Assembly: GCA_030148665.1 (NCBI GenBank)
Contig: JASBSZ010000007.1
Location: 1-64,000, forward strand
Reading direction: 5' to 3'
DNA length: 64,000 nt
Origin: Alphaproteobacteria bacterium
GTDB lineage: Bacteria > Pseudomonadota > Alphaproteobacteria > Rhodobacterales > Rhodobacteraceae
This document shows positions 3,349-52,886 of this stretch, in pieces. Every line of letters starts with the position of its first letter. The first letter of the stretch is position 1. Both the position numbers and the translations under genes were made by a program. The notes beneath the pieces were generated by a model. The model was not told where the DNA came from and searched no databases. It saw only the letters and a program-made list of their open reading frames with translations.

Positions 3349-3819
3349 TCAGTAGGGGACGTTCATCCACCTGTATACCAGATGCAACAGCCAGGCCGGG
3401 CCGATCAGCAGGAATCGGATATCCTTGAAAAAGGACGGCCTGTTGCCCTCGACAGCATGGCCCAGGAACTGGCCGACCCAGCCCAGAACGAACAGGACCA
3501 GCGCAAATTCCCACAAGGGGAACATGATGCTTGTCTCGTAAGCCCGGATCAGCGCCACACCGATCAGAGCCAGGAAAAAGAACCCCACCGCCAGCGTGGG
3601 CGAAAGCACGAGATAATAGACAAGAACCGGCGCAAGGATGATCGTCAGCCAGTTCAGCCCCGCCACGCCGGAAAAAGCACCGGGAACCGGCAGAGACCAC
3701 AACAAGGCCATCAGACTCCAGGCGATGAGCGGAACACACACCCAGTGAATCCCTTTGTTCACGGGGTTCCGATGGCTTTCGCCATATTCGGACAAGAGTG
3801 TGTCGATCCTTCTGATCAT
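3349..3819 (-). CDS. DUF962/Mpo1-like membrane protein
   Basis: This 156-aa membrane protein has the DUF962 (YGL010w-like) signature YGESHRNPVNKGIHWVCVP near the N-terminus, a second histidine motif FLGHAVEGNRPSFF near residue 125, and four hydrophobic segments. Yeast Mpo1 of this family is an Fe(II)-dependent dioxygenase of 2-hydroxy fatty acids; most bacterial members are untested. The histidines that bind iron in Mpo1 appear kept (H in SHRNP, H in IHW, H in GHAVE). The ATG at 3819 is used; a GTG three codons upstream (3828) is the alternative. Membrane location is clear, the reaction is inference. Confidence 0.75.
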   Translation of the reverse strand: MIRRIDTLLSEYGESHRNPVNKGIHWVCVPLIAWSLMALLWSLPVPGAFSGVAGLNWLTIILAPVLVYYLVLSPTLAVGFFFLALIGVALIRAYETSIMFPLWEFALVLFVLGWVGQFLGHAVEGNRPSFFKDIRFLLIGPAWLLHLVYRWMNVPY

Positions 3820-3889
3820 GGTTAACACCGCTCATGAATGACAGATACCCTACGTCATTTCCGCCCAATCACCAAACCGACAGGAAAGA

Positions 3890-3909
3890 CCCCGATCAAT
3901 CGACCGGGG
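3890..3909 (-). terminator. Weak hairpin terminator downstream of clpB
   Basis: CCCCG (3890-3894) can pair with CGGGG (3905-3909), and on the minus strand the stem is followed by TCTTTCC. It lies 40 bp after the clpB stop. The stem is short and the T-run interrupted, so termination may be partial. Confidence 0.35.
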
Positions 3910-3949
3910 CCCGTCCTCTTTTTGCCACATCGCACGGTTGTGAAAAGCG

Positions 3950-6529
<2,580 letters not shown>

Positions 6530-20424: not shown

Positions 20425-21963
20425 CTACTGGGACAGGCGCGTGATGCGGCCCTCGACCCTGGCGTTGATCGTGCCCATCGCGGCCAGATAGCTGATCACG
20501 TCATTGGCCATCAGATTGCCATTGCCCTTGTTGATCAGCACGCGGCCCTTGCGCAACATGCGATAACCGTCTCCGCCCCGCAGCATGTAGTCATTCGTGG
20601 CCAGCCTGTAGGTCGCATTCGGATCCAGAGGCGCATCGCCAACCTTGACCGAAACGACCCTCGCGCCAGCCGGTGCCGCAGGATTCCAGACGACCGTCAT
20701 GCCCGAGACCTGCGGAAAGCGCCCGGCCCCCTTTTCGACCTTGGAAAATCCGTTTTCCAGCGCCGCCAGAACCTGCTTGCCGGTGACCTCGGTCATCACC
20801 GTGACATTGCCAAAGGGCAGCTCGGTCAGCACGTCGCGCCGGGTGATGCTGGTGCCCGGGTCATAGGTGCGGTCGCCGCGTATTCCTCCGCCATTGGTAA
20901 TCGCGATGTCCGCCCCCGTCGCCTTGCGCATGGCATCGACGATCAGGTCGGCAAAGGCCGATTCCTGGCTGCGCACCGTGTTGCGCCGGGTATCCAGGGC
21001 GGTCTCGGTGGTCGCGATCACCACGTTCAGTTCCTTGTCCAGCCTGGCCTGATAGGCGTCGACCCTGGCCTGAGTTTCAGGATCGGGCTGCACGGTCATG
21101 GTATCGATGAACCGGAAATTCGGCACCCAGCGCACCTTGCGCTTGCCACGCTTTTCGCCAATCGTCACGGTGATGTCCAGCGGCGACAGAAAGCGCCCGT
21201 CGATCGAAGTTTCGACATAGGCAACCTTGCCATCATAAAAGGTCGCATAGCTGTGGTCGTCACCGGAAATGACTATGTCGAATGCACCGCTTGCAATCAG
21301 CTTGCGATCGTTGCTCTGATCGGTCTGCACCACCCCGATCACCAGATCGGCGCCGTCCTTGCGTGCGCGCCGTGCGGCGGCGACCCCGCTCTTGACGGTA
21401 GGACCAAAGACCAGGTTTCCGGTACTCGAAACCTCGGGCGAGGTATCCTGCGCAACCGGCACCAGGGCAACCTTGACGTCACCGAACTGCTTGAACATCA
21501 CCCCGCCCAGCACCTTGAGCGGCGTCCCGTCAGGCCGCGTGATGTTGACCGCCGCCCATGGATATTTCGAGGCCTTTGCCTTTTCGATGAAATTCCTGAC
21601 CCCGAAATCGAATTCATGGTTTCCGGGGACCGCGATGTCAAAGGGTACCAGATTGGTCAGCTCGACCATGTTCTGCCCCTTGTCGAAACCCGACAGGATT
21701 GACGGCGACAGCATGTCACCATCGAAAACATACAGCATGTTCGGATTGGCCGCCTTTTCTGCCTTGGCCACGGCATTCAGGCGGGCAACGCCCCCGCGCC
21801 CCCGCTTGTCGGCAAAATTGTATATGTCGCCAATCCCCAGAATGGTGATCTTGACCGTCTCGGCTGCCCTGATCACCGGCGCCGTCAGCGACAGGCCCAG
21901 AACGGCCGCCCCCAGTGCAAGCCCCAGTTTCCGAGAAACAGATCGATAAACAGATATCGTCAT
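20425..21963 (-). CDS. Secreted 5'-nucleotidase / UshA-like metallophosphatase
   Basis: This 512-aa exported enzyme has a signal peptide (about 1-32, hydrophobic LGLALGAAVLGLSLTAPV). A calcineurin-like metal domain follows with GDIYNF, FDGDML, GNHEFDFG and a GDDHSY block in place of the usual GHxH. The C-terminal 5'-nucleotidase domain has ITNGGGIRGD and TNDYMLRGGDGY. Such enzymes release phosphate and nucleosides from nucleotides in the periplasm, which could feed the nucleoside importer at 36-41 kb. The start at 21963 has GGAAGGAA upstream; an open extension to 22038 has none. Confidence 0.87.
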   Translation of the reverse strand: MTISVYRSVSRKLGLALGAAVLGLSLTAPVIRAAETVKITILGIGDIYNFADKRGRGGVARLNAVAKAEKAANPNMLYVFDGDMLSPSILSGFDKGQNMVELTNLVPFDIAVPGNHEFDFGVRNFIEKAKASKYPWAAVNITRPDGTPLKVLGGVMFKQFGDVKVALVPVAQDTSPEVSSTGNLVFGPTVKSGVAAARRARKDGADLVIGVVQTDQSNDRKLIASGAFDIVISGDDHSYATFYDGKVAYVETSIDGRFLSPLDITVTIGEKRGKRKVRWVPNFRFIDTMTVQPDPETQARVDAYQARLDKELNVVIATTETALDTRRNTVRSQESAFADLIVDAMRKATGADIAITNGGGIRGDRTYDPGTSITRRDVLTELPFGNVTVMTEVTGKQVLAALENGFSKVEKGAGRFPQVSGMTVVWNPAAPAGARVVSVKVGDAPLDPNATYRLATNDYMLRGGDGYRMLRKGRVLINKGNGNLMANDVISYLAAMGTINARVEGRITRLSQ

Positions 21964-42252: not shown

Positions 42253-43299
42253 TCACTCGGGCTGAAATCCCGAAACGAGGCGACGCAACCCGATCAGCGC
42301 ACCGACAACGATCGAACCCAGCGCAACCGGGGCCGAGTATGTCAGCGTCGAAAACGCCGACAGGCCCTGCCCGATGGTGCAGCCCAGCGCGATGACACCG
42401 CCCACGCCCATCATGGCGGCGCCGAACATCTGGCGACCCAGTTCCTGGGCATCCTCGCAGGCCTCCCAGCGGAAATGGCCCTTGATCAGCGAACCCAGGA
42501 ATCCGCCCAGTATGACACCGGCCACCGAGCCCACCGAAAAGTTGATGCCGCCCGCGGTTGAGGTCATGAGAAAGATCAGCGATCGGCCCAGAGGGGCGGT
42601 GTAGGAATAGCTCTGCACATCTACCGCGCCCAGGCTGGCCTCGTTCACGGCGCTGGTTCCCCACCAGCCGCTGACAATGGCCAGCCCCACCATTGCGGCC
42701 CAGAAGATGGATACCGGGGCATTGCGCAGATCGCGATTCCGCAGCCCCCACACCAGAAAGGCCACCCCGATGCCAATGGCGATGGCATAGACGGGTACCG
42801 ACGTCCAGCCCGACAGAAGATGCGCGATCCCCTGTGTCGTCGTCGCCTGTGATTCCGGGAACAGGAATGTCCGCAGCGGCGCAATCGGCCCGCCCAGGGT
42901 CATGAAGCTGAAAATGCCGATCACGATGACGGCGACCAGTGCGCGCAGATCGCCACCACCGATTCGCGCAAGGCTGGAAAAGGCGCAATTGCCCGTATAG
43001 GCCATGCCATAGCCGAACATCAGCCCCCCGACGATACTGGCCAGGGGATTCCATTTCAGCGAATAATAGAAGGTCGCGTGAAAATCGAGGATCCCGATCT
43101 GCGCCAGGGTAAAGGTTCCGATGATGGCAACCCCCAATGCCACCCCCCACATGCGCAAACGTTTCTGGTTCTGGCCGTAAAAGGCCGATTCGATGGCGCC
43201 AAGCGTGCAGAAATCCCCCAGCCGGGCGGCCAGCCCCAGCACGGTTCCCCCGCCAAGACCAACCAGTGCAGCCAGCATCCCTGCCGATATCTGTTCCAT
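42253..43299 (-). CDS. soxT: SoxT-type YeeE/YedE sulfur-compound transporter
   Basis: This 348-aa inner-membrane protein of the YeeE/YedE (sulf_transp) family has about nine to ten transmembrane helices and repeated cysteine/glycine motifs (GLAARLGDFCTLGA, GYGMAYTGNCAFSS, GGVIALGCTIGQGLSAFS). E. coli YeeE imports thiosulfate. Linked to soxR and soxS it corresponds to the SoxT proteins of other sox clusters, thought to move sulfur compounds or signal to SoxR. The ATG at 43299 is set by GGAGGG; a GTG at 43311 is the alternative. Confidence 0.88.
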   Translation of the reverse strand: MEQISAGMLAALVGLGGGTVLGLAARLGDFCTLGAIESAFYGQNQKRLRMWGVALGVAIIGTFTLAQIGILDFHATFYYSLKWNPLASIVGGLMFGYGMAYTGNCAFSSLARIGGGDLRALVAVIVIGIFSFMTLGGPIAPLRTFLFPESQATTTQGIAHLLSGWTSVPVYAIAIGIGVAFLVWGLRNRDLRNAPVSIFWAAMVGLAIVSGWWGTSAVNEASLGAVDVQSYSYTAPLGRSLIFLMTSTAGGINFSVGSVAGVILGGFLGSLIKGHFRWEACEDAQELGRQMFGAAMMGVGGVIALGCTIGQGLSAFSTLTYSAPVALGSIVVGALIGLRRLVSGFQPE

Positions 43300-43311
43300 G
43301 ATGCCCTCCAC

Positions 43312-43701
43312 TCAGCCGGTTGCCGACCGCTTTTCCTGCAGTTCGTCATCGGGTTCGTCACCCTCGGCGTCCGGGCAGCAGAAAAGTTCATAGACCATGT
43401 CGATGACCTTGCGCGCCTTGTCGTCATTCAGGGAATAATAGATGGTTTTCCCCTCGCGCCGATACTTGACCAGCCCCTCAAGCCGAAGACGGGCGAGTTG
43501 CTGCGATACCGCGGCCTGACGCGAGTGCAGCAGATTTTCGAGATCCGAAACCGATTTTTCACCCGAGGTCAGATGGCACAGGATCAGCAGACGCCCCTCA
43601 TGGGCAACGGCCTTGAGGAAATCGGCCGCGCCCACGGCATTCTCGATCATGAGGGCCATCTGCTGGTCACTCAGCCCTTGATCGTAATCCGGTAGGGGCA
43701 T
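43312..43701 (-). CDS. soxR: SoxR, ArsR-family repressor of sox genes
   Basis: This 129-aa winged-helix regulator has the DNA-recognition segment SVSDLENLLHSRQAAVSQQLARL, the beta wing GLVKYRREGKTIYYSL, and cysteines in LCHLT and LFCCPD that fit a thiol-based persulfide sensor (SqrR/BigR/SoxR group). It would repress sox genes until thiosulfate-derived sulfane is present. The start at 43701 trims a long upstream frame without support. It lies between soxS and soxT on the leftward arm. Confidence 0.9.
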   Translation of the reverse strand: MPLPDYDQGLSDQQMALMIENAVGAADFLKAVAHEGRLLILCHLTSGEKSVSDLENLLHSRQAAVSQQLARLRLEGLVKYRREGKTIYYSLNDDKARKVIDMVYELFCCPDAEGDEPDDELQEKRSATG

Positions 43702-43716
43702 TGTCGGCCTCGCCTG

Positions 43717-43772
43717 CTCTGATTCAGAGGCATGTTGTCTGTCAGACCCGCCGGACCACAAATTCTGGTGGT
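43717..43772. promoter_or_regulatory. Palindromes upstream of soxR (candidate operators)
   Basis: CTCTGATTCAGAG (43717-43729) is a perfect 13-bp palindrome just before soxR. Farther up, ACCACAAATTCTGGTGGT (43755-43772) has matching 5-bp ends around AAATTCTG. The reverse core AGAATTTG is shared with the soxS/soxV promoter region. No good promoter boxes were found here, so autoregulation is only suggested. Confidence 0.4.
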
Positions 43773-43858
43773 GGCGAAAAGTCAGTGCGGTTCCTGCAAC
43801 CACTGCCACACGCGGCAGTAAAGTTCAACATTTTCCCACGGATCAGCGTCCCTGTGTC

Positions 43859-44233
43859 TCAGGAACCACCCTCTTTTCTGTCGATATCCTCAAGCATCCT
43901 GTCAAGCATGCCCCAAAAAAAGGCCTCGCCGGGATAGCCGACGATCCGGCTTTGCTCGACTCCATCCTTGACCAGCACGAATGTTGGCGTGAACCGCGCC
44001 TTGGACTTGATCTTCAGGGTCTTGGGAATCGGTTCGTAAAGATCGAGAACCAGCAGCGGCGCTCGTTTCCCCTCTTCCGTCTTTGCATAGATCACGCCGA
44101 CATCCTTGCGCCAGCGGGCGCACCAGATGCAACCCTCCTGCTGGAACATGACGAGGCGAAGCTCGGCACGCGCAGGATGTGTCGCGGGTACAAGCAACAG
44201 GACGGTGGCAAGGATGAACAGAAGGGGCCGCAT
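43859..44233 (-). CDS. soxS: SoxS, periplasmic thioredoxin-like protein
   Basis: This 124-aa exported thioredoxin-fold protein has a signal peptide (about 1-23) and the redox pair C35-C38 in EGCIWCARW, with a TPTFVLVKDG cis-Pro-like segment. In Paracoccus, SoxS keeps SoxY active by reducing its wrongly oxidised carrier cysteine. Here it leads the leftward arm, divergent from soxV. GGAGA lies seven bases before the ATG. Confidence 0.9.
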   Translation of the reverse strand: MRPLLFILATVLLLVPATHPARAELRLVMFQQEGCIWCARWRKDVGVIYAKTEEGKRAPLLVLDLYEPIPKTLKIKSKARFTPTFVLVKDGVEQSRIVGYPGEAFFWGMLDRMLEDIDRKEGGS

Positions 44234-44254: not shown

Positions 44255-44299
44255 TTGTTTACATAGTCAAATTCTAATATGATTGTGCGATCAAAGCAA
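44255..44299. promoter_or_regulatory. Divergent soxS/soxV promoters with candidate SoxR operator
   Basis: Rightward (soxV): TTGTTT (44255-44260), 17 nt, TATGAT (44278-44283). Leftward (soxS): TTGCTT (44299-44294), 17 nt, TAGAAT (44276-44271). Between them lies CATAGTCAAATTCTAATATG (44262-44281), whose ends CATA/TATG are inverted. The TAGAATT core recurs at the soxX -10 box. An ArsR protein bound here would block both promoters. In Paracoccus, SoxR is known to bind this same intergenic region. Confidence 0.55.
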
Positions 44300-44308
44300 G
44301 GAATACCC

Positions 44309-45046
44309 ATGTTCTTGGACATATCCCTTGGCGGCGCGGCATTGGGCGGGTTGCTTTCCTTCCTGTCACCCTGCGTGTTGCCGCTGGTACCGTTCTATTT
44401 CTGTTATATGGCCGGCATATCGATGGCCGAGCTGCGCGAAGACGGAATCGCACCGGGTGCGCAGCGCCGTCTTTTCGTTCTGGCAATCTTCTTTGCCATC
44501 GGCGTGACCACGATCTTTGTCTTTCTGGGCATGGCGGCAACCGCCATCGGCCAGGCCTTTGGCGACTGGATTCGCCCGCTGTCATACGTGGCCGCCCTGA
44601 TCCTGTTCCTGTTCGGGCTGCATTTCCTGGGCGTCCTGAAAATCCCGCTGCTTTACAGGCAGATGACCTTCGAGACCCGGCGCCAACCGTCAACCATTGT
44701 CGGTTCCTACGTGACGGGGCTTGCCTTCGGCTTTGGCTGGACGCCCTGTGTCGGGCCTGCGCTGGCGGCGGTTCTGATGGTGGCCAGCACGCAGGACAGC
44801 GTAAGCCGCGGTGCCCTGCTGCTGCTGGTCTACGGGCTGGGCATGACCCTGCCATTCGTGATCGGTGCGCTTTTCTGTCGGCCCTTCCTGAACTGGATGC
44901 AACGCAAGCGGAAATATCTCGGCCATATCGAAAAGGCGATGGGCGTCTTTCTGATCATCTTTGCGGTGCTGATCGCAACCAATACGGTGACACGCATCTC
45001 GCAATTCCTGATCGACTATTTCCCGGGGCTCACCGCGATCGGCTGA
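44309..45046 (+). CDS. soxV: SoxV, CcdA-type thiol-electron transporter
   Basis: This 245-aa inner-membrane protein of the DsbD/CcdA family has six hydrophobic segments, with the two redox cysteines C22 (SFLSPCVLPLVPFY) and C147 (FGWTPCVGPAL). It carries electrons from cytoplasmic thioredoxin to periplasmic Sox thioredoxins. SoxW, its usual partner downstream, is absent here; SoxS across the promoter region is the only visible acceptor. The start at 44309 follows AAGGAA; a frame from 44279 overlaps the promoter and is rejected. Confidence 0.93.
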   Translation: MFLDISLGGAALGGLLSFLSPCVLPLVPFYFCYMAGISMAELREDGIAPGAQRRLFVLAIFFAIGVTTIFVFLGMAATAIGQAFGDWIRPLSYVAALILFLFGLHFLGVLKIPLLYRQMTFETRRQPSTIVGSYVTGLAFGFGWTPCVGPALAAVLMVASTQDSVSRGALLLLVYGLGMTLPFVIGALFCRPFLNWMQRKRKYLGHIEKAMGVFLIIFAVLIATNTVTRISQFLIDYFPGLTAIG

Positions 45047-45052
45047 CAATCA

Positions 45053-45072
45053 CGCACGGCCGGGTCCGTGCG
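45053..45072. terminator. Hairpin after soxV
   Basis: CGCACGG pairs with CCGTGCG around CCGGGT, 7 bp after the soxV stop. It has no T-run, so it is probably an attenuator or stability hairpin. Confidence 0.4.
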
Positions 45073-45168
45073 CCCCATTTCACATCGTATCCGTTTGATT
45101 CGATGCAGCCCGGACACGGCGTTTCACGAACAATCATTACCGACGTATTCACATCTTTGAATTTTTTG

Positions 45169-45197
45169 TTGTGTAAAAGGGGATTCTCACATAGAAT
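45169..45197 (+). promoter_or_regulatory. Promoter of soxXYZABCD with AGAATT motif
   Basis: TTGTGT (45169-45174) and TAGAAT (45192-45197) are 17 nt apart, about 30 bp before the soxX start. The sequence CATAGAATTGAAC covering the -10 box resembles TTAGAATTTGAC at the soxS promoter. It is therefore a second candidate SoxR site, in the position where Paracoccus SoxR binds (before soxX). Confidence 0.55.
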
Positions 45198-45225
45198 TGA
45201 ACGGGCATGAAACAGGGAGGAATAA

Positions 45226-45684
45226 ATGAAGCCGTATCAACTGGCACTCATCCCGGCGTCATTTCTCGCAATGGCAACATTGGCCTCGGCCGGTACGATC
45301 AAACCGGATGATGTCGTATTCGCACCAAACGGCGCGGTGTCCACATCGTTGACCGGCACCCCGGGAGACCCGGCAAACGGCCGCAAGGTCTTTGCCAACC
45401 GCAAGCTGGGCAACTGCCTGGCGTGTCACAAGAACTCGGATCTGTCGGAACAGCAGTTCCACGGTGAAATCGGCCCCGCCCTAGACGGTGTCGCCGAGCG
45501 ATATGACGAAGCGCAACTTCGCGGAATTCTGGTGAATTCGAAAAAGACCTTCGAAGGCACCATCATGCCATCCTTTTACCGCCTCAAGAACGGCGCGCGG
45601 ACCATGAAGAAATTCCAGGGCAAGACCATACTGACAGCCCAACAGGTCGAGGACGTGGTCGCCTATCTCAAGACACTCAAGTAA
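45226..45684 (+). CDS. soxX: SoxX, monohaem cytochrome c
   Basis: This 152-aa periplasmic subunit has a signal peptide (cleavage after ASA, residue 22) and one haem site C64-x-x-C67-H68 (NCLACHKN), with the Met ligand probably in TIMPSFYR. SoxX pairs with SoxA to attach thiosulfate oxidatively to the SoxY carrier cysteine. GGGAGGAATAA precedes the ATG. It is the first gene of the core sox operon. Confidence 0.95.
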   Translation: MKPYQLALIPASFLAMATLASAGTIKPDDVVFAPNGAVSTSLTGTPGDPANGRKVFANRKLGNCLACHKNSDLSEQQFHGEIGPALDGVAERYDEAQLRGILVNSKKTFEGTIMPSFYRLKNGARTMKKFQGKTILTAQQVEDVVAYLKTLK

Positions 45685-45695
45685 CGGAGACATCC

Positions 45696-46124
45696 ATGAA
45701 CCTGTCCAGAAGACAAGCACTGGCACTTGGTGGAGCGGTCGTCACTGTCAGCCTCGTCCCCATCGATTTCGCGATGGCCGCATCCGATGAGGCCACCAAG
45801 GAGGCGATCAACGCCTTTACCGGCGGGGCCGATATCGCTGACGGTGGCGTCAAGCTGACCACCCCGGAAATTGCCGAAAACGGCAACACGGTGCCGATAT
45901 CGGTGTCCGCGCCCGGCGCGGTCAGCATAATGATCATCGCCACCCGCAACCCGAATCCGGGGGTCGTGACCTTCAACTTCGGCGCCATGGCGAAACCCGC
46001 TGCGGCAACCCGCATCCGCCTGGCCGGCACACAGAACGTGATCGCCGTGGCCAAGATGGCGGATGGAACATTCAGGAAAACCAGCAACGCCGTCAAAGTC
46101 ACGATCGGCGGTTGCGGCGGCTGA
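45696..46124 (+). CDS. soxY: SoxY, sulfur-carrier protein
   Basis: This 142-aa carrier has a twin-arginine type signal (SRRQALALGGA) and the C-terminal swinging arm GGCGG, whose C140 holds the growing sulfur intermediate. It forms a heterodimer with SoxZ and is exported folded with it. It starts 11 bp after soxX, and length and both ends match the family. Confidence 0.96.
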   Translation: MNLSRRQALALGGAVVTVSLVPIDFAMAASDEATKEAINAFTGGADIADGGVKLTTPEIAENGNTVPISVSAPGAVSIMIIATRNPNPGVVTFNFGAMAKPAAATRIRLAGTQNVIAVAKMADGTFRKTSNAVKVTIGGCGG

Positions 46125-46149: not shown

Positions 46150-46479
46150 ATGGCAAAAATCAAACCTCGTGTGAAAGTTCCCAGATCGGTCAAGGCGGGC
46201 GAATTCTTTACCGTCAAGACACTGATCAATCACAAGATGGAATCCGGTCAGCGCAAGGACAAGAAAACCGGCAAGAAGATCCCGCGCAAGATCATCAATT
46301 TCTTCGAGGCGAGCTTCAACGGAACCCCGGTATTCACGGCCGATATCCAGCCGGCGGTTTCAAGCAACCCGTTCTTCCAGTTCTCGATGAAGGTCGACGG
46401 ACCCGGCAAGCTGGCGTTCAAGTGGGTTGATGACGATGGCTCGGTCTACGAGACGGCAAAACCTATCAAGATTGGCTGA
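46150..46479 (+). CDS. soxZ: SoxZ, sulfur-carrier partner protein
   Basis: This 109-aa immunoglobulin-like protein has no signal peptide, as expected because SoxZ is carried out with SoxY by the Tat system. Recognisable parts are PRVKVPRSVKAGEFFTVKTL and the C-terminal FKWVDDDGSVYETAKPI. The start at 46150 (GGAAATGG) is chosen because it gives the family's usual length; a frame from 46063 only overlaps soxY. Confidence 0.95.
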   Translation: MAKIKPRVKVPRSVKAGEFFTVKTLINHKMESGQRKDKKTGKKIPRKIINFFEASFNGTPVFTADIQPAVSSNPFFQFSMKVDGPGKLAFKWVDDDGSVYETAKPIKIG

Positions 46480-46509: not shown

Positions 46510-47373
46510 ATGAAAAAAACAACAAGAACGGCCATGATCGGCGCTTTCCTCGCGGCCTCGCTTGCCTTTTCGGCACAGGCCGGTGGAATGAACACCGAGC
46601 TGGTCATCGACACCGACAATGGCCCGGTCAAGATCATCACCCATGTCAAGAACCCGCCAAAGGGTTCTCCGCTGAGCGAGCTGTATTCAGGCTGGGTCTT
46701 CCGTTCCAAGGAAACCCAGGCGCTGGAAACGGACGATTTCGACAACCCCGGCATGATATTTGTCGAGCAGGCCCGCGACGCATGGAACACACCCGACGGA
46801 ACGGTCGGGAAATCATGCGCCGATTGCCACGGCGACCCCTCCAGCATGAAGGGCCTGCGCACGGTCCTGCCACGGTGGGACGCAAAGCTGGGCAAGCTGA
46901 TGACGCTTGAGGACTATGTCAACGAAAGCCGGGTCAAGTACATGGGCGCCAAGCCGTGGAAATATGGCGGCGGGCAGCTGACGGCCATGGTCGCGCTGAT
47001 CTCGATGCAGTCGCGCGGAATGCCGGTCAACGTCAAGACAGACGGCCCCGTACGCAAGTTCTGGGAGCTGGGCAAGAAGCTGTATTACACCCGTGTCGGA
47101 CAGCTGGACATGGCCTGTTCGAACTGCCACGAGGACAATTACGGCAAATACATCAGGGCCGACCACCTGTCACAGGGCCAGATCAACGGCTTTCCGGCCT
47201 ACCGGCTGAAGAATGCCAAGCTGAACTCGGTCCACGGGCGGTTCAAGGGCTGCATGAAGAACATCCGCGCAACCCCTTACAAGGTGGGCTCGGACGAATT
47301 CAAGGCGCTTGAACTGTATGTCGCCTCGCGCGGCAACGGGCTGTCCGTCGAGGCGCCCTCGGTGCGCAACTGA
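46510..47373 (+). CDS. soxA: SoxA, dihaem cytochrome c L-cysteine S-thiosulfotransferase subunit
   Basis: This 287-aa periplasmic catalytic subunit of SoxAX has a signal peptide (about 1-24). There are two haem sites, C103-C106-H107 (SCADCHG) and C203-C206-H207 (ACSNCHE), and C248 in GRFKGCMKN as the cysteine-persulfide haem ligand at the active site. The dihaem form matches Paracoccus SoxA. It is followed by an unusual 275-bp gap before soxB. Confidence 0.96.
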   Translation: MKKTTRTAMIGAFLAASLAFSAQAGGMNTELVIDTDNGPVKIITHVKNPPKGSPLSELYSGWVFRSKETQALETDDFDNPGMIFVEQARDAWNTPDGTVGKSCADCHGDPSSMKGLRTVLPRWDAKLGKLMTLEDYVNESRVKYMGAKPWKYGGGQLTAMVALISMQSRGMPVNVKTDGPVRKFWELGKKLYYTRVGQLDMACSNCHEDNYGKYIRADHLSQGQINGFPAYRLKNAKLNSVHGRFKGCMKNIRATPYKVGSDEFKALELYVASRGNGLSVEAPSVRN

Positions 47374-47648
47374 TCACCTCTGGCGGGGGGCCTGAAATGG
47401 GCCCCTCGCAACCTGCCGCCGCCGGGTATTCCCGACGTGTCGCGGGCCCTTTGACTTTCCCGTTGTCGCCACCTGGCCCACGCCACGGAACCATCGGTCC
47501 GATCCGGTGTCTTGCGCATGATCCCTTCCTTCATGCGCCCTGGCGCGACCAGACACGCAACGGCCGGCCAATGACGGATTGATGCGCCATACCGCGCCCC
47601 ATGCATGGGGCGACGCAAACGGACAGACCACAACAGGAGTTTCTCCAC
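47374..47648 (+). other. soxA-soxB intergenic region with two hairpins
   Basis: This gap breaks an otherwise tight operon. It holds a stem GGGGCC/GGCCCC just after soxA (about 47383-47403) and a perfect 18-bp palindrome CGCCCCATGCATGGGGCG at 47595-47612, 36 bp before soxB. I see no convincing gene, and no promoter with both boxes. The hairpins may regulate the relative amounts of SoxXYZA and SoxBCD. Confidence 0.5.
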
Positions 47649-49346
47649 ATGATTTCCCGACGTGATTTTCTGCAGGCTTCCATGGCTGCTTCGGCCATCT
47701 ACGGCAGCTCGGCCTTTGGCAACTGGGCGCGCCTCGCCGCCGCCCAGCGCCTGAGCCAGGACGAATTGCTGAAATTCGAAACCTATGGAAATGTCTCGCT
47801 GATTCACGTCACCGACATTCATGGCCAGCTGAAGCCGATCTATTTCCGCGAACCCGAGATCAATATCGGGGTCGGCGCCAACCGGGGCAAGGTGCCCCAT
47901 GTTACCGGCGCAGCCTTTCGCAAGCTGTATGGAATCAAGCCGGGCAGCGCCGACGCCTATGCCCTGACCTATGACGATTTCACCGCCCTGGCCAGGGCCT
48001 ATGGCCGGATGGGTGGGCTCGATCGGGTGGCGACGGTCATCAACGCCATTCGTGCCGACCGGCCAGATGCGCTGCTGCTGGATGGCGGCGATACATGGCA
48101 TGGCTCATATACCTGCTACCAGACGCAGGGGCAGGACATGGTCAACGTGATGAACGCATTGAAACCCGACGCGATGACCTTTCACTGGGAATTCACCCTG
48201 GGCAGCGAGAGGGTGCAGGAAATCGTTGACGGCCTGCCCTTTGCCGCGCTGGGCCAGAACATATTCGACAAGGAATGGGACGAACCCGCGGATCTGTTTG
48301 CCCCCTACAAGATGTTCGAACGCGGCGGTGTCAAGATCGCCGTGATCGGGCAGGCATTTCCCTACATGCCGATTGCCAATCCGGGCTGGATGTTCCCCGA
48401 ATACAGTTTCGGCATCCGCGAGGAACACATGCAGGAAACCGTGGACGAGGTGCGCGCAAAGGGTGCCGAACTCGTCGTCCTGCTCAGCCACAACGGTTTC
48501 GACACCGACAAGAAGATGGCCGGTCGGATCAAGGGTATCGATGTCATCCTTTCCGGCCACACGCATGACGCCATTCCCGAACCCGTCCTGGTGGGCAAGA
48601 CGGTCATCGTCGCATCCGGCTCGAACGGCAAGTTCGTCAGCCGTGTCGATCTGGACGTGCGGAATGGCCGGATGATGGGTTTCCGGCACAAGCTGATTCC
48701 GATCTTTTCCGACGTCATCAGCGCGGACAAGGAAATCACCACGCTGATCGACGAACAGCGCGCGCCATTTCTTTCGCAACTGTCCGAGGTGATCGGCAAG
48801 ACCGACAGCCTGCTATACCGGCGTGGTAACTTCAACGGCACCTGGGACGACCTGATCTGCAACGCACTGATCGACGAACGCGACGCCGACATCGCACTGT
48901 CGCCCGGCTTTCGCTGGGGTCCCAGCCTGGTGCCCGGCCAGGACATCACCCGCGAAGACCTGTTCGGCGCCACAGCGATGACCTATCCGGCTGCCTACCG
49001 GGTGGAAATGACCGGCGCGCGGCTGAAACTGATTCTCGAAGACGTCGCCGACAACCTGTTCAACCCCGATCCCTATTATCAGCAGGGCGGTGACATGGTG
49101 CGCGTCGGGGGCATGGGTTATTCCATCGATGTCGGCAAGACGATCGGAAACCGCATCTCGAACATGACCCTGTTGAAAACCGGCAAACCGATCGATCCCG
49201 GCAAGACCTATGTCGTTGCGGGTTGGGCGTCGGTCAATCAGGGGACCAAGGGCCCGAACATCTGGGATGTGGTCGAAAACTACATCCGCCGGCAGGGCAC
49301 GGTCACCATCGACCCGAACAAGACCGTAAAGGTGACCGGCACCTGA
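47649..49346 (+). CDS. soxB: SoxB, thiosulfohydrolase
   Basis: This 565-aa dimanganese enzyme of the 5'-nucleotidase superfamily is exported by Tat (MISRRDFLQASMAASAIYG). The metal site is spread over VTDIHGQLK, DGGDTWHGS, and SHNGFDTDK...LSGHTHDAIPEP. It removes the terminal sulfonate of SoxY-bound intermediates as sulfate. The start at 47649 is set by the Tat signal and CAGGAGTTT upstream. Confidence 0.96.
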   Translation: MISRRDFLQASMAASAIYGSSAFGNWARLAAAQRLSQDELLKFETYGNVSLIHVTDIHGQLKPIYFREPEINIGVGANRGKVPHVTGAAFRKLYGIKPGSADAYALTYDDFTALARAYGRMGGLDRVATVINAIRADRPDALLLDGGDTWHGSYTCYQTQGQDMVNVMNALKPDAMTFHWEFTLGSERVQEIVDGLPFAALGQNIFDKEWDEPADLFAPYKMFERGGVKIAVIGQAFPYMPIANPGWMFPEYSFGIREEHMQETVDEVRAKGAELVVLLSHNGFDTDKKMAGRIKGIDVILSGHTHDAIPEPVLVGKTVIVASGSNGKFVSRVDLDVRNGRMMGFRHKLIPIFSDVISADKEITTLIDEQRAPFLSQLSEVIGKTDSLLYRRGNFNGTWDDLICNALIDERDADIALSPGFRWGPSLVPGQDITREDLFGATAMTYPAAYRVEMTGARLKLILEDVADNLFNPDPYYQQGGDMVRVGGMGYSIDVGKTIGNRISNMTLLKTGKPIDPGKTYVVAGWASVNQGTKGPNIWDVVENYIRRQGTVTIDPNKTVKVTGT

Positions 49347-49380: not shown

Positions 49381-50649
49381 ATGTCCGAAAGGGAAAAGAC
49401 GGTCAGAACCCGCAGGACATTCCTGAAAGGATCCGTGGCCGCCCTCGGCGGGGCCGCCGCCACCCCCGCGCTGGCGGGGCAGCTTCCTGATCCGGCCATC
49501 ACCGAGGTTCAACCCTGGCGCCGTCGTCTGGGCCCGGGCGTCGATGCGTCCCCTTACGGCCTGCCCAGCCCGTTCGAATCGCATGTCCAAAGGCGCAACG
49601 TGCCCTGGCTGACGGCGGAAACCCGCAGTTCCATCAACTTTACCCCGCTGCATCAGCTCGATGGCACGATCACCCCCAACGGCCTGTGTTTCGAGCGCCA
49701 CCACAGCGGCGTGGCCGAAATCGACCCCTCCAGACACCGCCTGATGATCAACGGGCTGGTCGAGCAGCCGTTGGTCTTTACACTTGACGACATCAGGCGT
49801 TTCCCTCGTGAAAACCGCATCTATTTCATGGAATGCACCGCCAATGGTGGCATGGAGTGGCGCGGCCCGCAGATGAACGGTGTCCAGTTCACCCACGGCA
49901 TGATCCACAACGTCATGTATACCGGCGTGCCGCTGCGGCTGATCCTGCAAGAGGCGGGTATCAGGCCAAATGCGAGCTGGCTGCTGGCCGAAGGGGGCGA
50001 CGCGGCGGCGATGACCCGTACGCTCCCACTGGAAAAGGCGCTCGATGATTGCATGGTTGCCTTTGCCCAGAACGGCGAGGCCCTGCGCGCCGAGAACGGC
50101 TATCCGCTGCGTCTGCTGGTGCCCGGTTGGGAAGGCAACATGTGGATCAAGTGGCTGCGCCGGCTTGAGCTGGGCGACAAGCCCTGGATGCAACGCGAGG
50201 AAACCTCGAAATACACCGACCTGATGCCCGATGGAACCGCACGCCGGTTCACCTGGGTCATGGATGCCAAATCGGTCATCACCAGCCCCAGCCCGCAGGC
50301 CCCCATCACCCACGGCAGGGGGCCGCTTGTCATCACCGGGTTGGCCTGGTCGGGTCACGGGATCATCACCAGGGTCGATGTCACGCTGGATGGCGGGCGC
50401 AACTGGATCGAGGCGCGCATTGACGGCCCCCGCCTGCCAAAATCACTGCATCGCTTTTACCTTGAAATCGACTGGGACGGCCGGCCGATGCTGCTGCAAT
50501 CGCGGGCGATTGATGAAACCGGCTATGTGCAGCCGACGATGAAAGCGCTCAGGGCGATCCGGGGTGAAAATTCGGTCTATCATAACAACGGCATCCAGAC
50601 CTGGCATGTGCGGAAAAATGGCGAGGTGGAAAATGTCGAGGTTTCATAA
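49381..50649 (+). CDS. soxC: SoxC, molybdenum sulfane dehydrogenase subunit
   Basis: This 422-aa sulfite-oxidase-fold protein has a Tat signal (RTRRTFLKGSVAALGGAAA), the molybdenum ligand C152 in IYFMECTANGG, and the C-terminal dimerisation domain with VDVTLDGGRNW. With SoxD it oxidises the SoxY-bound sulfane so that no free sulfur accumulates. It overlaps soxD by 17 bp. Confidence 0.95.
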   Translation: MSEREKTVRTRRTFLKGSVAALGGAAATPALAGQLPDPAITEVQPWRRRLGPGVDASPYGLPSPFESHVQRRNVPWLTAETRSSINFTPLHQLDGTITPNGLCFERHHSGVAEIDPSRHRLMINGLVEQPLVFTLDDIRRFPRENRIYFMECTANGGMEWRGPQMNGVQFTHGMIHNVMYTGVPLRLILQEAGIRPNASWLLAEGGDAAAMTRTLPLEKALDDCMVAFAQNGEALRAENGYPLRLLVPGWEGNMWIKWLRRLELGDKPWMQREETSKYTDLMPDGTARRFTWVMDAKSVITSPSPQAPITHGRGPLVITGLAWSGHGIITRVDVTLDGGRNWIEARIDGPRLPKSLHRFYLEIDWDGRPMLLQSRAIDETGYVQPTMKALRAIRGENSVYHNNGIQTWHVRKNGEVENVEVS

Positions 50650-51256
50650 CCTTCTGGCGGTTGCGCTCGTCCTCGTGCCTCTGCCTGCCGGTGCCGGCAA
50701 GCTGGGCCTCGGCCGCCCTGCCCTGCCGGCCGAGATCCGCGCCTGGGACAGGGACGTCCGCCCCGACGGGCAAGGCCTGCCTGATGGCAAGGGCAGCGTG
50801 GCCCAGGGCGAGGAAATCTACCAGGAACGCTGTGCCGCCTGTCACGGCGATTTCGGCGAGGGTGTGGGGCGCTGGCCGGCGCTGGCCGGCGGGCAGGACA
50901 GCCTGACCGATGATCGTCCGCTGAAAACCGTCGGTTCGTACTGGCCGTATCTTTCGACTGTGTGGGACTATGTTAACCGGGCCATGCCATATGGCGATGC
51001 GGCAACGCTGAGCGCAGATGAAACCTATGCGCTGGTCGCCTATATCCTGTATCTCAACGATATCGTCACCGAAGAGGATTTCGTCCTGACGCGCGAGAAC
51101 CTTCCGTCAATCCAGCTGCCCAACAGGCCGGGTTTTCGCGATGATGACCGGCCACAGGCCGAGTACCCCCTGTTTCGCGACCATTGCACAAAGGATTGCA
51201 AGGCCGACGTCAGAATTCTGAGGCGTGCCGAAAATCCCGACCTTACGCCAAAATAA
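50633..51256 (+). CDS. soxD: SoxD, short monohaem cytochrome c subunit of sulfane dehydrogenase
   Basis: This 207-aa exported cytochrome has a signal peptide (about 1-21, ending AGA) and one haem site C67-C70-H71 (RCAACHGDFGEG). The SoxD signature PNRPGFRDDDRP follows, and the protein ends in DLTPK with a real TAA stop. Paracoccus SoxD is about 380 aa with a second cytochrome domain; that whole domain is missing. The start lies inside soxC after GGTGGAAA. No frameshift remnant of a second haem domain is seen downstream, where a CoA ligase gene begins 97 bp later. Confidence 0.93.
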   Translation: MSRFHNLLAVALVLVPLPAGAGKLGLGRPALPAEIRAWDRDVRPDGQGLPDGKGSVAQGEEIYQERCAACHGDFGEGVGRWPALAGGQDSLTDDRPLKTVGSYWPYLSTVWDYVNRAMPYGDAATLSADETYALVAYILYLNDIVTEEDFVLTRENLPSIQLPNRPGFRDDDRPQAEYPLFRDHCTKDCKADVRILRRAENPDLTPK

Positions 51257-51353: not shown

Positions 51354-52886
51354 ATGAACGCATATACAGGCAACCATCTGGCGCAGAGCATCCGAAAGGC
51401 CAGCCTGGGCCGCAAAGACACGCCTTTCATACACCATGCAGGCGGCGAGACCCTTTCCTATGGCCAGTTCTTTGCCAATGCCGAGCGCATGGCCGCCACC
51501 CTGATCGACGCTGGCCTGCAACCGGGCGACCGGGTGGCCGTGCAGGCTGCCAAGACGGTTGCGATGCTCGAACTTTATGTGGGAACGGTTCTGGCGGGCG
51601 GCACCTTTCTGCCCCTGAACCCCGCCTATACAACCAGCGAAATCGACTATTTCCTGAACGATGCCGCCCCGCGCGTGTTTGTCTGCGATCCAGCGCGCAC
51701 CGATGATCTGGCGCCCGTCGCGCGTGCTGCCGGAACCAGCCATCTGTGGACCCTTGGCGCAGACGGGAAAGGCAGCCTGACCGACCGGCGCGATACATAT
51801 GCGCCCGGCTTTCACGCCGTCAAACGCGGCCCCGAGGATCTGGCAGCGATCCTCTATACATCGGGCACGACCGGGCGTTCCAAGGGGGCCATGCTGTCCC
51901 ACCGGGCGCTTGAATCAAACTCGCAAACCCTGCGGGCGCTGTGGCGATTCACCTCTGACGACGTGCTGATCCACGCCTTGCCGATCTTTCACACCCACGG
52001 CCTGTTCGTTGCCACCAATATCACCATGATGGCCGGCGGCAGCCTGATCTTTCTGCCGAAATTCGATGCTGACACGATCATCCGGGAAATGCCCCACGCC
52101 ACGGCCATGATGGGGGTGCCGACCTTTTACACCCGCCTGCTGGAACAGCCCGGCCTGGCGCAGGCCGCACGCAACATGCGGCTGTTCATTTCCGGCTCGG
52201 CCCCGCTGCTGGATGAAACCCACCGCCGTTGGCAGGCCGTCACCGGGCATGCGATTCTGGAACGATACGGCATGACCGAAACCAACATGACCACCTCGAA
52301 CCCCTATGAGGGCGAACGTCGCCCCGGCACCGTCGGCTTTGCCCTGCCGGGGGTCGAGATCAGGGTTTGCGACGACAGCGGTGCCCAGCTGCCCCAGGGC
52401 GAAATCGGCGTGCTCGAGGTCCGGGGGCCGAACCTGTTTTCAGGCTATTGGCAAATGCCGGAAAAAACGGCCGAGGAAATGCGCGAAGATGGTTTTTTCA
52501 TCACCGGCGATGTGACCCGCATCGACAGTGACGGATATCTGCAGATCGTTGGCCGTGCCAAGGACATGATCATTTCCGGCGGCCTGAATGTTTACCCGAA
52601 AGAGGTTGAAAGCCTGATCGACGCCATTGACGGCGTTCTGGAAAGCGCCGTCATCGGCGTGCCCCACCCGGATTTCGGCGAGGGCGTCGTTGCCGTGGTG
52701 GTGCCGGAACGGGGAGCGGAGCTTGATGTGGCGCAGATCATGGCGCCGCTTGAAAAATCACTGGCAAGTTTCAAGCAGCCAAAGAAGGTGATTTTTGTCG
52801 AGGCGTTGCCACGAAACACCATGGGCAAGGTGCAGAAAAACGCCCTGCGAAAGGATTACGCCCGGCTATTTTCTGCACAAGCCTGA
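51354..52886 (+). CDS. matB: Malonyl-CoA synthetase
   Basis: This 510-aa AMP-forming ligase has ILYTSGTTGRSKGAMLSHRA, the MatB hallmark RYGMTETNMTTSNPYEGERR (arginine for the second carboxylate), GRAKDMIISGGLNVYPKEVE, and the catalytic lysine near the end in LPRNTMGKVQKN. It makes malonyl-CoA from malonate, ATP and CoA. No malonyl-CoA decarboxylase (matA) is adjacent. It follows soxD on the same strand by 97 bp but is functionally unrelated. The start follows TTGAGGGA. Confidence 0.92.
   Translation: MNAYTGNHLAQSIRKASLGRKDTPFIHHAGGETLSYGQFFANAERMAATLIDAGLQPGDRVAVQAAKTVAMLELYVGTVLAGGTFLPLNPAYTTSEIDYFLNDAAPRVFVCDPARTDDLAPVARAAGTSHLWTLGADGKGSLTDRRDTYAPGFHAVKRGPEDLAAILYTSGTTGRSKGAMLSHRALESNSQTLRALWRFTSDDVLIHALPIFHTHGLFVATNITMMAGGSLIFLPKFDADTIIREMPHATAMMGVPTFYTRLLEQPGLAQAARNMRLFISGSAPLLDETHRRWQAVTGHAILERYGMTETNMTTSNPYEGERRPGTVGFALPGVEIRVCDDSGAQLPQGEIGVLEVRGPNLFSGYWQMPEKTAEEMREDGFFITGDVTRIDSDGYLQIVGRAKDMIISGGLNVYPKEVESLIDAIDGVLESAVIGVPHPDFGEGVVAVVVPERGAELDVAQIMAPLEKSLASFKQPKKVIFVEALPRNTMGKVQKNALRKDYARLFSAQA

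Follow-up and report, generated by a model that had tools for sequence, protein, structure and literature searches.

The window, that is, the whole stretch of 64,000 nucleotides analysed here (Rhodobacteraceae, assembly GCA_030148665.1), contains a sox cluster which reads, from left to right, as genes for a YeeE-type transporter, soxR and soxS on the minus strand, followed by soxV, X, Y, Z, A, B, C and D on the plus strand. Query Sox proteins were taken from a Paracoccus pantotrophus record devoid of annotation (L108, NZ_CP038206.1), to which we assigned the sox gene names according to gene order. The YeeE/YedE-type sulfur transporter (42253..43311) is 58% identical to its Paracoccus neighbour. 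The ArsR-type regulator gene soxR (43312..43809) and the periplasmic thioredoxin-like gene soxS (43859..44233) were named by position; the product of the latter, 45% identical to the Paracoccus neighbour, found no match in Pfam or NCBIfam. The DsbD-type membrane protein encoded at 44279..45046 shows 62% identity to the Paracoccus protein here named SoxV. All of soxXYZABCD are present, i.e., a complete Sox core: soxX (45226..45684, one CxxCH, TIGR04485), soxY (45696..46124, GGCGG end, TIGR04488), soxZ (46150..46479, with an inferred start, the open reading frame opening at 46063, TIGR04490), soxA (46510..47373, two CxxCH, TIGR04484), soxB (47601..49346, possibly starting at 47649, TIGR04486) and soxC (49381..50649), the molybdenum subunit of 422 aa. 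SoxX, Y, Z, A, B, and C each pass the curated NCBIfam cut-offs; SoxC reached 643.9 bits with its own model (TIGR04555, cut-off 420) vs. 152.8 bits with that of SorA (cut-off 600) and 129.3 bits with that of SorT (cut-off 570). Elsewhere in the window, distant SoxC-like (23-28%) and SoxB-like (27%) matches at 1892-2482 and 20599-21840, on the minus strand, are probably other proteins of the molybdopterin and 5'-nucleotidase families.

The last gene of the cluster, soxD (50633..51256, plus strand), overlaps the 3' end of soxC by 17 nt and encodes 207 aa up to a TAA stop. No NCBIfam model matched its product above cut-off, and the gene owes its name to its location and to its similarity to Paracoccus SoxD; the SoxC score and a SoxD haem-1 core directly after soxC assign the pair to SoxCD. 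As the earlier note had read it, SoxD stops after the first cytochrome domain, with a single CxxCH motif (CAACH, residues 67-71, 50831..50845). Aligned with 11 further SoxD, among them short, long and permuted ones, the window protein shares 52 invariant columns; Met118 (50984..50986), a candidate distal haem ligand, and Cys185 and Cys189 of the C-terminal CxxxC of the core (51185..51199) are conserved in all 12 sequences. Among the nearly invariant columns, the window protein deviates at a handful of positions, including 186, where Thr replaces Met. SoxD of P. pantotrophus (384 aa, dihaem), likewise encoded directly after soxC, is 59% identical to it over the haem-1 core; unlike the window protein, it continues into a linker and a haem-2 domain, for which the window SoxD has no equivalent.

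The short form is natural and intact, as had been proposed, and is equivalent to the haem-1 portion in the PDB 2xts structure: residues 23-206 align nearly end to end with residues 2-185 of chain B (205 aa, one haem domain; E 2e-72), which is part of a dihaem protein, whereas the window SoxD is a whole gene product. In both sister loci, L003 and L004 (the same sequences as L084 of genome G008 and L083 of genome G001), SoxD is also 207 aa long and 73% identical to that of the window. This equal length and the alignment with 2xts chain B indicate that soxD carries no frameshift, and since its stop-to-stop frame spans only 237 aa, no additional domain is hidden upstream. The next plus-strand gene begins 97 nt past the soxD stop, provided that the ATG at 51354 is used. 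The haem-2 model detected no class I haem domain in the six frames of the whole window (open reading frames of at least 85 aa), and no SoxE, SoxF or haem-2 match was found within 5.5 kb downstream of soxD. The earlier note had named a frameshift or an assembly error concealing a second domain as what could undo its reading; we found no point in favour of such an error, the sister loci, the alignment with 2xts chain B and the six-frame search all speak against it, and its probability appears negligible. Annotators should indeed not take a short SoxD as the sign of a broken gene.

The cluster also differs from that of Paracoccus in its accessory genes, the gene order being the same except that, in P. 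pantotrophus, soxW precedes soxX and soxEFGH follow soxD. In the window, the 182 nt between the soxV stop and soxX (45044..45225, plus strand), the site of soxW in G001, G002, and G008, gave no tblastn match to Paracoccus SoxW. The absence of soxW at this place, already remarked upon, now extends to the window's own assembly (G000), in which soxW was not found, the best tblastn match in the window having an E value of 0.08. Within the genus, SoxW is present in G001, G002, G003, G004, G005, and G008, absent from G006 and G007, and represented in G009 by one match only (E 5.5e-4). The observation that soxEFGH do not follow soxD can be broadened for two of these genes, SoxE and SoxF being found nowhere in the assembly; SoxH had one match only, at 27% (six genomes searched). 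SoxF gave only two weak matches in G000 (E 1.1e-6 and 1.2e-5), vs. E < 1e-160 in 16 of the 30 genomes searched, and the SoxE search yielded a single match there, a class I cytochrome of 147 aa encoded on contig C46, which a tree separates from the SoxE group. As the assembly is 94.09% complete, the absence of soxW, soxE and soxF is probable rather than certain.

One-haem SoxD is by no means rare, contrary to what the earlier note implied. Counting haems as CxxCH motifs only, we surveyed the genome of the window together with 60 relatives (SoxD threshold E 1e-20), and found SoxD in 26 of these 61 genomes, short in 9 (G000, G001, G002, G005, G008, G009, G018, G032, and G047) and long in 17. Ten genomes of the window's genus were searched, six had SoxD, and all six had the short form. 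In the family outside the genus, only 2 of 19 SoxD-bearing genomes had it, the other 17 having two haems or, in one of them, three. That most relatives share the short form, which the earlier note had named as a refutation of its reading, is true of the genus but not of the rest of the family. A wider sample, in which relatives of the window protein are over-represented and MAGs frequent, combined the best 80 of 223 relatives with 42 of 386 genomes of the class and 52 of 397 of the phylum, the DNA of the class and phylum samples being examined for part of those genomes. It yielded 205 SoxD-like frames and, after removal of copies, of L001 and of L027 (cut by a contig end), 183 distinct rows, the best 80 of 223 relatives included. 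Of these rows, 91 have one haem and 1 has three, while the second haem is C-terminal in 76 and N-terminal in 15. A count of 106 one-haem rows among the 183 was rejected, as in 15 of these the SoxD core is preceded, within one frame, by a haem domain; they make up the permuted class. The 37 rows scoring below 240 (26 one-haem, 11 dihaem), which may partly be SoxCD-like paralogues, were left out of the set regarded as SoxD proper. The remaining 146 rows, scoring at least 240 and likewise including the best 80 of 223 relatives, comprise 65 one-haem, 65 C-terminal, 15 N-terminal and 1 three-haem SoxD. In three of the 26 low-scoring one-haem rows (L144, L145, and L147), a one-haem domain resembling SoxD opens a very long frame, which extends past the end of the DNA examined, and a SoxC-like gene is adjacent; behind the SoxD-like domain lie Fer4_5 iron-sulfur domains, as identified with Pfam on L145.

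The second haem of Paracoccus SoxD is reportedly dispensable for catalysis, according to the title of a 2005 study cited in PMC9959259. Given this and the 65 of 146 SoxD-proper rows devoid of haem 2, we do not treat the second haem as defining SoxCD; in the short SoxD, a form that has been investigated in Paracoccus finds a common, natural equivalent. We know of no clear answer to the question of why Paracoccus SoxD has a second haem that catalysis can do without. Passages of reviews describe SoxD as dihaem (PMC5023260, PMC5061964), and the accessible part of the open-licence literature, outside which most subscription journals lie, yielded no description of monohaem, permuted or split SoxD.

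Regarding the origin of the short form, a tree of SoxC+SoxD places the window in a clade of 21 rows (support 99), 20 of them one-haem and one, L095, dihaem. Three of the 20 short rows have a separate one-haem gene of the haem-2 type about 180-310 nt past the short soxD stop, namely L009 (8325-8789), L010 (8811-9263) and L005 (7335-7790), all with inferred starts; by eye, its product shows an apparent signal peptide as well as an Ala/Thr/Glu stretch resembling a linker. Two others (L013 and L075) have a SoxE-type domain downstream instead, and 15 showed no haem-2-type domain within the 857 to 12747 nt downstream. The three rows belong to the window's subclade on the outgroup-bearing tree and to the other half of the clade on the midpoint-rooted one. 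Their separate haem domains nest with the fused haem-2 domains of L007, L012, L021, and L048 (99/94), and the same nesting among fused domains appears in a domain tree of 178 rows. None of 200 bootstrap trees united the 28 fused domains in a clade that excludes the separate gene, and an AU test placing this gene outside the fused-domain clade was borderline (p 0.0531). Judged from these sequences, the separate cytochrome may have arisen by fission of SoxD. Besides these rows, we noted in L192 (reverse complement, 3725-4183 and 5964-6518) a short SoxD after which come a one-haem protein whose match to SoxE is limited to the C-terminal half of the latter, then SoxF, then a separate class I cytochrome.

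That three clade rows possess such a gene, and that the G000 assembly is 94% complete, raises the question of whether the window's organism has a haem-2 domain elsewhere in its genome, as a missed separate cytochrome that would leave SoxCD functionally dihaem. A search of G000 with the L009 cytochrome returned a single match (C46:173075-173401, E 1e-10), which clusters among class I cytochromes from relatives and lies outside the SoxD haem-2 group. Two matches each in the sisters G001 and G008 also fall outside this group, and we consider a missed haem 2 improbable.

The C-terminal dihaem groups branch outside the window's clade and L095 lies inside it, which favours the loss of haem 2 in the window's lineage over its retention. 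The short rows L208 and L209, lying inside dihaem groups, favour further losses. Retention would mean that a one-haem SoxD is ancestral in alphaproteobacteria and was kept here, that the other Rhodobacterales gained haem 2, and that the separate cytochrome of L009, L010, and L005 represents the state before fusion. It agrees with the outgroup alphaproteobacterial rows, which are largely one-haem, and with the restriction of the separate gene to three of 20 short clade rows. The matching tree was also tolerated by an AU test in which 42 rows (40 dihaem, L208 and L209) were held apart from 44 others, i.e., the window clade, one-haem and permuted rows, with L095 and L086 left free: the constraint cost 18.2 log units and was not rejected (p 0.213). 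Against it stand the dihaem L095 within the window's clade, the short L208 and L209 within dihaem groups, the nesting of separate domains within fused ones, and two dihaem groups parted from the window's clade, on the outgroup side, by branches supported at 96-97. The midpoint root was used in one SoxC+SoxD tree, its outgroup side being taken from the outgroup-bearing tree, and both AU tests were set after the trees had been seen. With p values of 0.213 and 0.053, loss is favoured, not proven, and we hold retention to be rather unlikely, though less so than a missed second haem.

By count, short SoxD tends to coincide with a missing soxF, though not demonstrably more than kinship would explain. 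Among the 26 SoxD-bearing genomes, SoxF occurs in 1 of 9 with short vs. 14 of 17 with long SoxD (p 0.0008), and among 71 loci scoring at least 240 with at least 4 kb downstream, it accompanies 10 of 31 one-haem, 24 of 30 C-terminal dihaem and 1 of 10 permuted SoxD. Only four independent pairs underlie this co-loss, with a median p of 0.5, and a causal tie was rejected on this ground. Nor is there support for one deletion spanning soxD to soxEF as the cause, since soxF is still present in two rows of the window's clade, L013 and L075. That one cluster shows several losses could also be taken as decay, with haem 2, soxW and soxEF disappearing as the pathway is abandoned. This seems very improbable: the core sox genes are intact and above cut-offs, SoxC remains about 90 and 92% identical to that of the two sisters (73% for SoxD), and these sisters, G001 and G008, retain soxW.

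We rather consider it likely that the window encodes a working monohaem sulfane dehydrogenase, which has lost a modular haem 2 and whose haem 1 passes electrons to a soluble class I cytochrome. In the periplasmic Sox pathway, SoxXA ties thiosulfate to a SoxY cysteine, SoxB cleaves off the sulfone sulfur in the form of sulfate, and the SoxC molybdenum centre oxidises the remaining sulfane sulfur, the electrons then passing to haem 1 of SoxD. The SoxC molybdenum domain, SoxD haem 1 and the SoxY carrier are all recognisable by sequence in the window, and these steps would proceed there with all core genes and a SoxD reduced to its haem-1 domain: thiosulfate would be bound to the SoxY cysteine, sulfate released by SoxB and the sulfane sulfur oxidised at SoxC. 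Electrons would then run from SoxC through the single SoxD haem directly to a soluble class I cytochrome, with no built-in second haem in between. The most likely acceptor would be the class I cytochrome at C46:173075-173401, a candidate drawn from an incomplete assembly and, as such, a guess. Activity, electron acceptor and order of events are all inferred. The route would be of the same kind as in SorA/SorT-type sulfite dehydrogenases, which associate a molybdenum subunit with a monohaem cytochrome. Rhodobacter sp. CZR27 (L243, NZ_CP023549.1) has a one-haem SoxD like that of the window, of 211 aa, and, unlike the window, an annotated FAD-dependent oxidoreductase 53 nt after soxD, in the position of soxF.

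The haem-2 domain of Rhodobacterales SoxD would be a cytochrome module joined to the haem-1 core, which the window's lineage lost, possibly via a separate-gene stage as in L009, L010, and L005. In most Rhodobacterales rows, the second haem is C-terminal. By contrast, the 15 permuted rows (L035, L039, L041, L049, L052, L054, L056, L058, L059, L060, L065, L068, L078, L127, and L164) have a class I haem domain ahead of the core; 13 of them are in named records, which we take to be Hyphomicrobiales, including Nitratireductor soli, N. pacificus, Pseudaminobacter arsenicus and Pseudohoeflea suaedae. Seven permuted frames, inspected in part by eye (signal, linker), consist of a signal peptide, the haem domain, an Ala/Pro/Glu-rich linker and the SoxD core, so that haem 2 of these Hoeflea/Nitratireductor-type bacteria lies between signal peptide and core; Pfam indeed recognises two Cytochrom_C stretches in L035. 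On a tree of 58 chosen domains, N-terminal and Rhodobacterales C-terminal haem-2 domains group together (88/87), along with the three separate domains and that of L192, apart from SoxE and nine other class I rows. The same group in the 178-row tree (88) additionally holds three SoxE-marked rows and six others. In the 11 low-scoring distant dihaem rows, the second domain, also C-terminal, is of another kind, the Rhodobacterales haem-2 model failing to match it at E 1e-6. The three-haem SoxD of L089 (1207-2922) has two haem-2-type domains in tandem.

Such diversity suggests a modular second haem domain, which underwent gain, relocation, separation or loss on several occasions. We lean, somewhat less firmly than for the monohaem enzyme, towards haem 2 being an interchangeable acceptor module, C-terminal or N-terminal, replaced, duplicated, freed by fission, or lost as in the window's lineage, whose free and fused forms would indicate the partner of haem 1. 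Natural one-haem, permuted, split and three-haem SoxD offer ready-made enzymes for probing the role of haem 2, with which the setting of the acceptor, of the rate or of the potential could be told apart. Finally, a Paracoccus-type, C-terminal dihaem SoxD was also encountered on a Rhizobiaceae plasmid, that of Ciceribacter thiooxidans (L242, 4072-5220), possibly acquired from Rhodobacterales.
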